Shown: one piece after another, positions 18,800-30,000 of the stretch | Layout: the number at the start of each line of letters is the position of its first letter | Numbering within the stretch: position 1 is the stretch's first letter | Assembly: GCA_031292255.1 (NCBI GenBank) | Contig: JARLHN010000008.1 | Coordinates: forward strand, 1-64,000 | Reading direction: 5' to 3' | DNA length: 64,000 bases | Origin: Oryzomonas sp. | GTDB taxonomy: Bacteria > Desulfobacterota > Desulfuromonadia > Geobacterales > Pseudopelobacteraceae | Made by a program: the position numbers and the translations under genes | Notes under the pieces: generated by a model | Told to the model about the DNA's origin: nothing | Databases searched by the model: none | Seen by the model: the letters and a program-made list of their open reading frames with translations, nothing else

Positions 18800-19882
18800 T
18801 TATGTTTCAGCACGACCGGCTTTTGTCCTCTTTGTGGAGAGGAGAATATTTTCCGCGTTCGGGCATTGTTCATCATCCTCTTCACGTACGGTCTTTGCTT
18901 CCTCTGTTTCTTTTGCCGGTTCGCCCCCGACAATTGACTTGAAGTCTTCGAACATCTCAGGGTTAAAGTTCCGCTCTACGTCCGACGCCAGGATTTCGAT
19001 AGCCTCGTCATGAGTTGATGCCTTCCGGTACGTCCGCTTATTGGTCAGAGCGCAGTAGATGTCGCAAAGCGCGGCAACCTGGGCGCTCCGCGTAATGTTG
19101 TTCCCTTCCAGCCGCCCCGGATAGCCACTGCCGTCCCAACGTTCGTGGTGGTGCTTGACGATTGTCAGCACAATTTCATCGAACTGACCGGTCTTCTCCA
19201 GAAACTCGTGCCCCATGGACGGGTGCAGTTGGATTGTCTTGTATGCGATGTCCGAGAGCGCATCGGGATGATCAAGCAGATCCCTGGAGAGAAAAGTCAT
19301 TCCAATATCGTGGAAGAGTCCACCTGTTCCGACGGACAGCATCTCGTCGGCATCGATTTGGTAGAGCTTGTCGTGGACCAGCATTGACAGGATTGCAACC
19401 TGGACCGAATGCGCCAGAATGTAGAGAGAGCCGCTCGAAATTGCCTTCAGTAAATCGAGGAGGGAGTCGGCGGAGACAGCATAATCCATCAGGTTTTTAA
19501 GGAGACTTTTACAGCGGTCGAGGTCATATTCCGCCGATGCCTGCCCCGGCCCAAGGATCTCATGCACATACTCGATGCTGGTTTGCTGAAGGATCACGCT
19601 TTTGGCATGCGTAGAGAGGTCGTTACTGTTAAGAAACTCCGTCAGATGTGACTCCAGGTATGCGGTCACGCTGCCGACATCTCCCGTGCGTACATAGAGA
19701 TATTTCGTATCATTACGGACAAGACGCTCAAGGTCTGCCTGACTGAGTACGAACTCGGCGGTTTTGTAGAGAATGTAATTTCCTCCGCGTCCCTTCATAT
19801 AGAGGTTTACCGCCGGAAAGAGTTCCGGCAGCAGACATTCGGTAATCAGCGGCTTATAGTATTCCTCGTGCTGCTTTGACAT
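18800..19882 (-). CDS. HD-GYP domain phosphodiesterase
   Basis: A 360-residue cytoplasmic protein. The N-terminal 150 residues form an uncharacterised helical/beta domain. The C-terminal HD-GYP domain (about 155-320) has HSVQVAI, the metal-binding pair in GLFHDIGM, and HHHERWDGSGYP. By family it degrades cyclic di-GMP; some relatives, including in Geobacter, act on 3',3'-cGAMP. The ATG at 19882 has a GGAGGG site; the longer open frame to 20101 runs through an inverted-repeat element and is not protein. It lies downstream of a single-domain response regulator and near a GEMM riboswitch. Confidence 0.88.
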   Translation of the reverse strand: MSKQHEEYYKPLITECLLPELFPAVNLYMKGRGGNYILYKTAEFVLSQADLERLVRNDTKYLYVRTGDVGSVTAYLESHLTEFLNSNDLSTHAKSVILQQTSIEYVHEILGPGQASAEYDLDRCKSLLKNLMDYAVSADSLLDLLKAISSGSLYILAHSVQVAILSMLVHDKLYQIDADEMLSVGTGGLFHDIGMTFLSRDLLDHPDALSDIAYKTIQLHPSMGHEFLEKTGQFDEIVLTIVKHHHERWDGSGYPGRLEGNNITRSAQVAALCDIYCALTNKRTYRKASTHDEAIEILASDVERNFNPEMFEDFKSIVGGEPAKETEEAKTVREEDDEQCPNAENILLSTKRTKAGRAET

Positions 19883-20090: not shown

Positions 20091-20465
20091 TCACATTTCA
20101 AAGTTATTTGCCAAAACGGTGAGCAGTTCCTCTATCTTGAATGGCTTCAAGAGGACGTGATGGCGATATTTCTCCAGATGCTTCCTGGATAGGCTGTCTT
20201 CTCCCAAGCCGGTCAGAAAAATGATGGGCATATCAGCCGTGACGTGGTTGGTCTTCAATTGGTTGGCCGTTTCAAAGCCACTCCAGCCGGGCATTATTAC
20301 ATCCATTAAAATGATATCCGGCAAAAATTCGCAAGCTTTTTCAAAGCCCGTTTTCCCATCCGTGGCATATTCCACTTCGAATCCATGTAACCTCAGCCGT
20401 TCTGTAAGCACGTCAACAACAACCTGTTCATCGTCAATTATCAGAATTTTATTTGTCATTGACAT
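20091..20465 (-). CDS. Single-domain response regulator
   Basis: A 124-residue protein that is one CheY-like receiver and nothing else. It has the acidic pair in ILIIDDEQ, the phosphoacceptor Asp in IILMDVIMPGWSG, the Thr in IIFLTGLG and the Lys in VLLKPFK. With no output domain it must act by binding a partner. The HD-GYP gene lies 208 bases downstream on the same strand, so the phosphodiesterase is the natural candidate. The start could be the ATG at 20465 or at 20459. Confidence 0.88.
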   Translation of the reverse strand: MSMTNKILIIDDEQVVVDVLTERLRLHGFEVEYATDGKTGFEKACEFLPDIILMDVIMPGWSGFETANQLKTNHVTADMPIIFLTGLGEDSLSRKHLEKYRHHVLLKPFKIEELLTVLANNFEM

Positions 20466-20522: not shown

Positions 20523-20912
20523 CTAGTTCCGGATTTTATCCAAAAGCTGCGTTTTGATGCTGTCGTCCATAAAGCTCTGATCGATTGCGCCCCGCACCCA
20601 GGGTTCGTTGCACTTGACCAAAATCTCCCCGGCTCCTACGGCTACTGCCGGGATGTTACTCCAGAGGGCGTTGCGAATCGACCACAACTCACCTGGACCG
20701 GCTTTTTTGCCCCTAGCCAGTTCTCGGCAATTCCGGCAGAGCATTGCAAGCGTATCCATGTTGGGCTGAATGTCGGGCTGAAAATCCCATACCTGCAAAT
20801 CCTCTTTGCCCTCGCACCATTCGCACGCGATCCGAGCCCGCCTGCCGATGGACTTGGCGAAGGAGCCAATGGCTTCAAGCCGCTTTTTGTTACCCTGACG
20901 ACCTTTCGACAT
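20523..20912 (-). CDS. Zinc-ribbon protein behind a riboswitch
   Basis: About 129 residues. The pairs CEWC (near residue 31) and CRNC (near 60) form a probable zinc ribbon, followed by a helical C-terminal region with the pattern IRNALWSNIPAVAVGAGEIL and EPWVRGAIDQSF. It looks like the small proteins often annotated as PhnA-like, but I do not assign a function. GAGGTG lies before the ATG at 20912. A terminator and a GEMM-I aptamer occupy its leader, so expression should depend on a cyclic dinucleotide. Confidence 0.75.
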   Translation of the reverse strand: MSKGRQGNKKRLEAIGSFAKSIGRRARIACEWCEGKEDLQVWDFQPDIQPNMDTLAMLCRNCRELARGKKAGPGELWSIRNALWSNIPAVAVGAGEILVKCNEPWVRGAIDQSFMDDSIKTQLLDKIRN

Positions 20913-20974
20913 ACACACCTCAATTCGAGTAGGGAGCAGGTTTTCCCCGGATTACGGTTCCCATGTCCGTGGAC

Positions 20975-21011
20975 GCAAAAAAACGCCCGTTCTTGAAGCA
21001 AGAAGGGCGTT
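20975..21011 (-). terminator. Terminator acting as riboswitch expression platform
   Basis: On the minus strand AACGCCC-TTCTTG, a short loop and CAAGAA-GGGCGTT (20982-21011) are followed by seven U. It lies between the GEMM aptamer and the zinc-ribbon gene. The aptamer 3' side contains GGGCG, which could pair with ACGCCC as an antiterminator. Confidence 0.75.
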
Positions 21012-21024
21012 ATTTGGACTTATG

Positions 21025-21115
21025 CGCCCTCTTTTTGGCAGCCCGGCTATCCTCTGCTCTTGAGGACCCGTGGATTTGCGTCCCTAGGTTACCCTAGGTT
21101 TGCTATTTACAGAGA
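21025..21115 (-). ncRNA. GEMM-I cyclic dinucleotide riboswitch, position 20 = A (cGAMP-like)
   Basis: Reading the minus strand, the conserved blocks appear in order: AGCAAACC, a TAGGGTAACCTA hairpin, GGGACGCAAATCC with the GCAAA tetraloop, ACGGGTC, then AGGATAGCCGGGCTGCC as the receptor side. These are the hallmarks of GEMM-I. Aligned on the Vibrio Vc2 aptamer (G19-G20-G21-C22-AAACC), this RNA reads T-A-G-C-AAACC, so position 20 is A. In GEMM-I RNAs, A at this position goes with 3',3'-cGAMP binding, as known from Geobacter; G goes with cyclic di-GMP. Class is confident; ligand is inferred from one base. Confidence 0.85.
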
Positions 21116-21527
21116 GGTATGTGGTGAATATTATGTATCTGGAAATATTGCATTTTTCATGCCTACAAGTCATGTCGTCGTAACCATCCGTTCTTACGAA
21201 GAACAGCAACGCAATTCCATAACCGGTTCCTTGTCCAGATCGCAAAACGTCACAAAAATATGACAAAAATCGTCTCAGTCTACTGGCGACCACCCGGGGC
21301 CTAAAGGGCCGGGGTGGTTGTGTAACGGTGGTGACTACCACCCCCGGCCCCTCCTAAACTAGGAGGGGAGGATAACACCCGGATCTTCCTCCTTCTTGAT
21401 AAGAAGGGGATTAGAGGGTGGTTGAGTACAAGTCTAAAATTATTTTGCCATCGAAATTCCCAAGGGTATACAATGATTTCGATTCGCGCGGGCAAAATTG
21501 ATGACGTAAAGGAGAATCAGCGAGGCC
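21116..21527. other. Gene-free stretch with palindromic repeats
   Basis: No credible gene. Positions about 21286-21316 form a hairpin (ACCACCCGGGGCC with GGCCGGGGTGGT), and further C/G-rich half-palindromes run to about 21425. They belong to the CCCTCCC-type extragenic repeats also seen near murA. Confidence 0.5.
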
Positions 21528-28069: not shown

Positions 28070-30000
28070 ATCGGGTAGGAGGCGGGATTACTCCCGCCGT
28101 CCTCCCACACCACCGTGCGTACGGTTCCGTACACGGCGGTTCATGAAGTGTGTTGGAGTCGGTGGTGCTGGTCTATGAATGACACCAGCCCCAGTTTGTC
28201 GAAGTAGGATTTCGGAACAGCTTTGTTCATATGCGCGGCCCCTGCGTTCCACCAGGGGCCGTGGCCGTTTGTGGCCGAGCGCCATGCCGTGGCTTCCGAT
28301 AATCCCAGGCGCGTCAAGTTCTTTGCTCTCGTGAAGGGGTGTTTCCACTGCTTCCATAGAATGCGTCGCAGCTTCCGCCTGAGCCAGCCGTCCAATTCCT
28401 CGAAGACCCCCTTTACTTCCGCGTGTCGAAAGTAATTCACCCAACCCCTCAACTTCGGAGTTGTCTCTTCGATGGTTGTTTGGAGCTTCTTTCCCCTACC
28501 CCGCCTGAAGATTGTCTTGAGATTGGCCTTGAGCCTGTCAACCGCTTTCGTGGCCACGGTAAGCCGTGGCTTGCGGTGCCAGGTCATGCTGTAGCTCAAA
28601 AACGACCTTTTCCACGGGCGGTCTACCGCGCTCTTGGCTTGGTTGACCGTGAGCTTGAGCCGCTCGGACAGGTAGCCGGTGATGGAGGCCATAACTCGCT
28701 CGCCGCTTGTCCGCGTTGCAACGTAGATGTTGCAGTCGTCGGCGTAACGGCAGAAAGCATGACCCCGTTTCTCCAGTTCCTCGTCCAGTTCGTCAAGGAG
28801 GATGTTGGACAGCAGCGGAGAGAGCGGACCGCCTTGCGGCGTGCCTTCCACCCGTGGCGATGTCACCCCTCCTTCCAGTATCCCAGCCTTGAGGTAACTG
28901 TCTATGAGAGACAGCACCTGTCGGTCTCCGACCTTGCGTTTCACCAGCGACATAAGGGTGTCGTGGTGGACTCGGTCAAAGAATTTCTCCAGGTCAATGT
29001 CAACCACCCATCTGAGGCCGTTCGCCACATGTTTCTGTGCAGCTTTTACCGCTTGATGGGCGCTCCTTTTGGGACGAAACCCGTAGGAGCTTTCCGAAAA
29101 TCCAGGATCGAACAGCGGGTTTATAACCTGTTGCACCGCCTGCTGAATGAGGCGGTCAAGGACAGTGGGTATTCCCAGCATCCGTGTTCCGCCTCCCGGT
29201 TTGGGGATTTCTACTTTCCGCACCGGTTGCGGGTGGTATGTTCCCGCCAGCAGTTCTTCTCTGATGCGCGGCCACTCTTGCCGTAAGTAGTCCATCAGGG
29301 TCGTTACCGGCATTCCATCGACGCCGGGCGCGCCTTTGTTGGATATTACACGAGAGTATGCCGCCATCATGTTGCCGCGACTGACGATCTTCTCCATCAG
29401 TTGCGTTGCCGCCTCCGGCCAGTGAGTTGCTTTCCTTCCCGTGACGTTTGCCGCACCTGTCCCGGCCACTCGCGGTCTCCGACCGCTACCCTCCGGGCTG
29501 GCACCGGGCATCTCAGCCAGGCCTTCTGCTGCTCCTGTCGTCATCGAAATTCAAGGCTCCTGTCCGCTTACTTCATGTTCGGCCCTTTGTCGGGCGGTTA
29601 AGCCGACTCGTATGGCCTCTGCTGACTTCTGCCAACCCTTCCCAACGCCTCTCGACGTCGCTAGCACAGAGGCAGATTGACAGACCTCCCAGGGTAATGC
29701 GCGTGACCTTCATCCCATATACCCGCCACATCTACAGCCACATCCTCCTGAATGGTTATCGGGCTTTGAATTTGCTTGCCTTCTCGCCCGGATGTGGATG
29801 CCTCATATGTGATTCCTGTTCGTCAGGCCAGGATTTTGCCTACAGCTTCCTTCGGATTCCGCCTCGCGACGGACACCCTTGCTGTTCAGCTATCGGTTCC
29901 CACCATCAGGGTCCGAAGAGGACTTGCACCTCCAAGTCACCAATCAGCCACCATAGCTGATTGGATGGCGCTTACGCGCCACGCGCCATGCCTGGCGCAC
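28070..30000 (-). mobile_element. Group II intron, class C-like, inserted behind a terminator
   Basis: On the minus strand the element begins GTGCGCC at 30000 (the group II 5' consensus is GUGYG), carries a reverse transcriptase gene in its domain IV, and ends CCTACCCGAT at 28070. Domain V is visible as a hairpin at about 28109-28140 with the CGC form of the catalytic triad, and domain VI as GGCGGGA/TCCCGCC at 28081-28098. Bases 29545-30000 are the structured 5' RNA domains. The 5' exon ends with the metY terminator hairpin and TTTTGCTT, the target preferred by class C introns. It looks complete. Confidence 0.85.
28141..29544 (-). CDS. ltrA: Group II intron reverse transcriptase/maturase
   Basis: A 467-residue intron-encoded protein. 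The reverse transcriptase domain (about 65-300) has [26 protein letters not shown], the palm motif [10 protein letters not shown] with the two catalytic aspartates, and [20 protein letters not shown]. The maturase (X) domain follows with [12 protein letters not shown]. No HNH endonuclease is visible at the C-terminus, as in class C. It helps intron RNA splice and reverse-splice into DNA. All catalytic residues are present, so the element may be active. Confidence 0.93.

Follow-up and report, generated by a model that had tools for sequence, protein, structure and literature searches.

What does the GEMM-I RNA on the minus strand of this 64-kb stretch of DNA (hereafter the window, meaning the whole stretch that was analysed) respond to, and does binding of its ligand turn the genes behind it on or off? 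A sequence-only reading had called it a likely cGAMP sensor. It is a genuine GEMM-I riboswitch, predicted to sense cGAMP, c-di-GMP or both. The explanation that we prefer, and to which we give an even chance, is that a hybrid GEMM-I riboswitch, with A20 on a lower P2 of G21-C46 and C22-G45, acts as a transcriptional OFF-switch.

Aptamer class and ligand

The aptamer is complete and occupies positions 21033-21113 of the minus strand. A cmscan search of the whole 64-kb window matched it to RF03168 (c-di-GMP-I-UAU) with 67.8 bits (E 1.5e-12, model positions 1-81 of 81; gathering score 65.9), and this is the sole GEMM-class match in the window. The RF01051 covariance model, proposed earlier as the check on the conserved GEMM-I blocks noticed on this strand, also gives a significant, full-length match at the same site (67.5 bits, positions 1-87 of 87; gathering score 35), which bears out those blocks and places the RNA in the GEMM-I/c-di-GMP-I class. 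The top Rfam family is nevertheless RF03168, not RF01051. The window RNA scores best with that model and above its gathering score, but the model consensus, from which we infer the meaning of "UAU", has U20, A47 and U92 where the window RNA has A20, A47 and C92, so that the label rests on overall similarity.

Bases were assigned by aligning the window RNA with 13 GEMM-I aptamers of the same genome and 2 of the genus, 15 in all. Positions follow the Vc2 numbering, matched to A14, A41 and C75 of the crystallised cGAMP RNA. In this numbering A20 lies at 21104, A47 at 21077 and C92 at 21038; the A that had been read at the equivalent of Vc2 G20, which is the base of the GEMM-Ib (cGAMP) class, is therefore present. 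The lower P2 consists of G21-C46 (21103/21078) and C22-G45. According to an excerpt of PMC6274999, the crystallised cGAMP RNA has A14, C15-G40, A41 and C75, with C15 and G40 touching or stacking on the ligand, and pilM has a U15-G38 pair adjoining the pocket (PMC9262584, in excerpt). The window RNA thus has in common with the Geobacter GEMM-Ib RNAs (Gs1761/pgcA, Gm0970 and pilM) the GEMM-I fold, A20, A47, C92, a transcriptional platform and the order of the host, but carries G21-C46 where the crystal pair would be C21-G46, a pair that may not be a requirement of the class. Judged by its bases, it is a hybrid: its position 20 is that of the cGAMP class, and its lower P2 resembles the one in c-di-GMP aptamers.

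Among 27 readable GGDEF motifs of this genome (30 loci examined of 34 matches), two carry the Hypr serine, those of L069 (GGDEF) and L070 (GGDEY). L069, a receiver-GGDEF protein, matches best in the PDB to the lysozyme fusion 6d9m (E 1.3e-66), presumably the Hypr construct from G. metallireducens of PMC6456294. Ser348 is described as active with GGDEF and inactive with GGEEF (PMC6456294, in excerpt), which fits L069. The cell therefore probably makes cGAMP, and the Hypr-type genes make this messenger plausible as a ligand, whether or not the window RNA reads it.

The published evidence on position 20 itself is more direct. In the Gmet_0970 GEMM-Ib RNA, a change of A20 to G turns selectivity from cGAMP to c-di-GMP (excerpt of PMC6456294), which argues that A20 favours cGAMP in the window RNA as well. 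This base is insufficient to fix the ligand, however, as the crystal pocket contains C15-G40 where the window RNA has G21-C46, mutations in the lower P2 change cGAMP/c-di-GMP selectivity (PMC9262584, in excerpt), and omcST, a Geobacter GEMM-I RNA, responds to both cGAMP and c-di-GMP (PMC6456294, in excerpt). What stands of the earlier claim of a likely cGAMP sensor is the A20 and a genome with Hypr GGDEF genes; the step from there to cGAMP selectivity is undercut by G21-C46, unlike the crystal pocket. The ligand may be cGAMP, c-di-GMP or both, with cGAMP plausible.

The window RNA is not isolated: RF01051 finds 14 GEMM-I RNAs in this genome, 6 of them with A at position 20, and at least one in 136 of the 141 genomes of the order. 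An AGC core (A20-G21-C22) is present in four RNAs of this genome (C32, which is the window RNA, C30, C14 and C44) and an ACU core (A20-C21-U22) in two (C42a and C35). To judge from published base numbers, both the crystallised cGAMP RNA and pilM would fit ACU. Across the order, exact patterns place the ACU core in at least 122 and the AGC core in at least 17 of the 141 genomes, these counts being lower bounds because the patterns are exact; reversed-pattern controls gave 15 matches for ACU and none for AGC. By these patterns, all 5 other genomes of the genus show ACU and none shows AGC. Beyond the order, at least 118 stretches carry the AGC pattern, which also matches, by pattern only, in Firmicutes. 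In six such Firmicutes genomes, their RNAs again matched by pattern only, the Hypr serine is found in 0 of 27 readable GGDEF motifs (30 loci of 64 matches), and the A20 core was dropped as a mark of cGAMP outside the order.

The alternative that survives best, with somewhat less than an even chance, is a c-di-GMP or dual sensor that tolerates A20 and acts as an OFF-switch or with either sign; on the ligand it overlaps our preferred explanation. The lower P2 would then be what it resembles, that of a c-di-GMP aptamer, the dual response would have its precedent in omcST, and it would be no surprise that the AGC pattern occurs beyond the order in genomes lacking the Hypr serine among the 27 motifs read, or that AGC and some G20 leaders (L161, L164 and L165) have a common platform. 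The A20-to-G result in the GEMM-Ib RNA argues the other way, since by it A20 should favour cGAMP.

Terminator layout and the sign of control

The seven-U terminator that had been noticed behind the aptamer is present as an intrinsic terminator at 20977-21011 (minus strand). Its hairpin (20982-21011, -16.3 kcal/mol, with a z of -5.3 for the hairpin alone) starts 27 nt past C92 and comprises a 5' arm, T (20999-21011), and a 3' arm, H (to 20982), with the U residues at 20977-20983. A simple terminator scan of the minus strand did not list it, owing to a bulge in the stem, and the complementary plus-strand hairpin was listed instead. Two further strands on the minus strand complete the platform: P (CCUCU, 21113-21117), the 5' side of an extended P1, which pairs with 21028-21032 and is the same in this genome's other AGC leaders, and A (AAGAGGGCG, 21025-21033), its 3' side. 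Strand A can pair either with P or with T, in the latter case as a duplex of 9 pairs at -13.7 kcal/mol. P:A and A:T were computed to be mutually exclusive, and P:A and T:H to be compatible. Since A:T blocks the terminator and P:A frees it, a ligand-driven OFF-switch is predicted.

A published strand scheme describes Cd1 of Clostridioides difficile as an OFF-switch with a T+H terminator and pilM as an ON-switch with strand A in the terminator (excerpt of PMC9262584). The window leader has the layout of Cd1: T:H is separate from the aptamer, strand A can choose either P (bound) or T (free) but not both, and the aptamer 3' strand is not inside the terminator as in ON-type platforms. This likeness concerns the strand scheme, and in the excerpted text Cd1 binds c-di-GMP with G at the 20-equivalent where the window RNA has A20. 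Under the proposed mechanism, strand A would pair with T before H is made if no ligand is bound, and some polymerases would read through. Binding of cGAMP and/or c-di-GMP would keep A in P1 and leave T free, so that T:H forms and transcription stops ahead of the zinc-ribbon and receiver genes and perhaps of the HD-GYP gene. If the latter belongs to the operon and its product is active, high signal would reduce its own breakdown.

In energies calculated for the RNA without ligand or tertiary contacts, transcripts of 134-150 nt favour the A:T fold over P:A by 1.7-6.2 kcal/mol; once 154 nt are reached, T:H, which is compatible with P:A, prevails. At full length, T:H in the window leader is favoured over A:T by 9.7 kcal/mol on the platform alone and by 6.2 kcal/mol on the whole leader, and it is the more stable in 20 of the 21 leaders that have an A:T competitor. 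As the terminator is the more stable fold, antitermination must be kinetic, and it is here that the OFF reading is weakest.

The same layout recurs. Within this genome, the aptamer 3' strand lies inside the terminator in eight leaders (C42a, C35, C2a, C2b, C2c, C23, C10 and C25), and a detached terminator with an A:T competitor is found in the window leader, C14 and C44; C30 has no terminator by our rule and C42b only a poor one. Across the order, 26 of 30 ACU leaders are overlapping, 2 detached and 2 without a terminator, with an A:T competitor in 0/30; the loci were taken in list order, one to each genome, which gives families other than the window's own too much weight. The AGC leaders (20, after 2 of 22 loci without a clear 3' end were dropped) are detached in 18 cases and have the competitor in 16, the exceptions in layout being L142 (C30 of this genome), without a terminator by rule, and L143, which precedes a GGDEF gene and is overlapping. 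Detachment is typical of AGC and not exclusive to it, as the G20 (GGC) leaders (22, after 4 of 26 were dropped likewise) include 15 detached, 3 overlapping, 3 without a terminator and 1 in between, with the competitor in 5. A check of A20 cores beyond the order gave 126 matches, 71 with a clear 3' end; after removal of 5 repeat loci, 44 had a terminator, 4 of these with an A:T competitor by our criterion.

When partners were permuted among the 21 competitor leaders, some of which are near-identical and hence not independent in these counts, pairing as good as the leaders' own arose in 16 of 5000 permutations for A:T, 261 of 5000 for P:A and 0 of 5000 for T:H; the own P:A pairing thus beats permuted partners weakly. 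The OFF reading is supported by this A:T result and by the preference for A:T before H is made, by the contrast between detached AGC leaders with a competitor and overlapping ACU leaders, by the Cd1 topology, and by AGC switches that precede HD-GYP genes elsewhere (see below). It is weakened by the stability of T:H, the P:A permutation result, the near-identity of leaders, and an A:T criterion that was defined after the window leader had been inspected. Published targets weaken it further: in G. sulfurreducens all genes behind GEMM-Ib riboswitches fall on gacA deletion, as expected of ON-switches (PMC6456294, in excerpt). Several predicted cGAMP-activated genes of G. metallireducens rose in a strain with low cGAMP and high c-di-GMP (PMC12285248, in excerpt).

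The stability of T:H raises the possibility, which we consider unlikely, that the A:T helix is non-regulatory. H would quickly displace A and termination would be the default, with the ligand having little effect or acting by another route, such as a pause. H is able to invade A:T from the loop side, and T:H wins at equilibrium in all but one of the competitor leaders, as this would predict; that the leaders' own A:T pairs beat permuted ones, and that the pairing recurs in several genera, argues against it. Least probable is an ordinary GEMM-Ib RNA, a cGAMP-selective ON-switch as in G. sulfurreducens, in line with the first reading of it as a cGAMP sensor, which did not address the sign: A20, the Hypr GGDEF genes and the drop of GEMM-Ib genes with gacA deleted speak for it, but G21-C46 replaces the crystal C21-G46 and, unlike in the published ON-switches, the terminator is detached and faces an A:T competitor; as it does not include the aptamer 3' strand, the ligand has no evident way to disrupt it.

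The OFF reading has a more specific form, which we think quite unlikely: a natural cGAMP OFF-switch of an A20/G21-C46 subtype that would repress an HD-GYP operon, giving positive feedback on the messenger, with the genome's two A20/C21-U22 switches in the ON layout. Two RNA subtypes would then respond to one messenger in opposite senses. Predictions of GEMM-I ligands lean on the base at position 20, and two A20 subtypes with opposite terminator layouts in one genome would mean that this base predicts neither sign nor, perhaps, ligand. Should the OFF reading hold, the genes turned down by a cyclic dinucleotide would include one for a likely phosphodiesterase, closing a feedback loop. No cGAMP OFF-switch and no A20/G21-C46 subtype were found in the literature searched, whose coverage stops short of the founding 2015 GEMM-Ib and 2017 variant-riboswitch work, making this weak evidence of novelty.

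Genes behind the switch

The zinc-ribbon, receiver and HD-GYP genes that had been noted near the RNA lie on its strand at 20523-20918, 20091-20465 and 18800-19882. The zinc-ribbon protein (131 aa with GTG as start codon, or 129 aa if translation begins at the ATG at 20912) has no match in Pfam or NCBIfam. Its 29 aligned homologues, in which four Cys are invariant, give weak family matches only (best E 0.0032, to a zinc ribbon, 15 members), and its PDB matches, none better than E 0.058, are implausible; it may resemble PhnA-like proteins. Relatives occur in 39 of 57 genomes searched. Of 30 loci scanned, 3 have a GEMM RNA beside the gene (L021, which is the window locus, L028 and L030), and so does a paralogue (L019, at C23). 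Upstream of this paralogue and of homologues in G001 and G002, the GEMM RNA has G20 and an overlapping, ON-type terminator. With the AGC case in the window, one zinc-ribbon family is thus reached by GEMM RNAs that differ in base 20 and in layout.

The second gene encodes a single-domain response-regulator receiver (PF00072, E 2.7e-23). The third encodes an HD-GYP domain protein of 360 aa from ATG (PF13487, E 2.7e-22; PF01966, E 3.4e-13; both computed on a slightly longer ORF), with the HD and GYP motifs present in frame, which is a possible cyclic-dinucleotide phosphodiesterase; breakdown of cGAMP by HD-GYP proteins was reportedly described by Wright in 2020. We infer co-transcription of the zinc-ribbon and receiver genes, perhaps with the HD-GYP gene. 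Membership of the latter is made less secure by intergenic gaps of 57 and 208 nt, by a weak sigma-70-like site at 20437-20465, and by its rarity beside zinc-ribbon relatives. A conserved zinc-ribbon/receiver/HD-GYP operon was rejected, as an HD-GYP gene is nearby in 1 of 29 relatives (L023, among L022-L050), and no receiver was detected at that locus.

All 141 genomes searched contain relatives of the HD-GYP protein. In G016 an HD-GYP gene with 43% identity stands 125 nt behind an AGC switch, and receiver-HD-GYP genes directly follow AGC switches in G006 and G034. Among 29 other HD-GYP loci scanned, a same-strand upstream GEMM RNA is present in 7, at distances of 121-841 nt and always with G20. 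This HD-GYP family thus comes repeatedly under GEMM control, by RNAs with either base at position 20. The seven G20 loci (L337, L341, L343, L345, L346, L347 and L348) come from seven genomes, and L345, L347 and L348 have a short intervening ORF. Other genes also follow AGC switches: in G055 a GGDEF gene begins 361 nt after A20, with a terminator that overlaps by rule, and the C30 (L017) and C14 (L018) riboswitches of this genome precede large secreted-type genes, for an Lcl_C/carboxypeptidase-regulatory-like protein and a pro-kumamolisin-like protein.

Promoter elements and neighbouring RNAs

A predicted sigma-54-like promoter element, scored against the -24/-12 consensus, lies at 21149-21164 on the minus strand, 51 nt upstream of the aptamer match, with a predicted start near 21138. 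It scores 19 of 22; when the 250 nt upstream were shuffled by mononucleotide 1000 times, 9 of the shuffles scored as high. A -24/-12-like site with a score of 19-20.5 of 22 stands 49-70 nt upstream of the aptamer match in all four AGC riboswitches of this genome, among them C44, an apparent duplicate of the window riboswitch, and the other 10 GEMM leaders score 17 or less. This is a local observation in this genome: as a general mark of A20 switches the promoter was discarded, since order-wide a score of at least 18 is reached by 4 of 22 AGC leaders (3 from this genome) vs 3 of 26 G20 leaders.

The C44 riboswitch (L010:3313-3393, minus strand; C44:4812-4892 in its own genome) is similar to that of the window in promoter element, platform and 5' leader, and is followed by a short sequence similar to the beginning of the zinc-ribbon protein and then by a resolvase gene; it looks like a decayed duplicate of the window riboswitch. 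A different arrangement is seen at C19 (L020:2421-2500, plus strand; C19:53420-53499), where the terminator of a G20 GEMM RNA is detached and its 5' arm is able to pair with the aptamer 3' strand, a competitor that differs from the A:T of the window leader; a large gene begins 439 nt downstream, and the RNA is possibly a c-di-GMP OFF-switch. At C42:77295-77533 (L012:2796-3034, plus strand), an ACU (A20) and then a G20 GEMM RNA stand in tandem before a gene for a secreted repeat protein, and possibly read two messengers in series. Within the window itself, Rfam also matches pieces of a group II intron (D1D4-3, D1D4-1 and Intron_gpII) at 28070-29873, all on the minus strand and consistent with a single intron.
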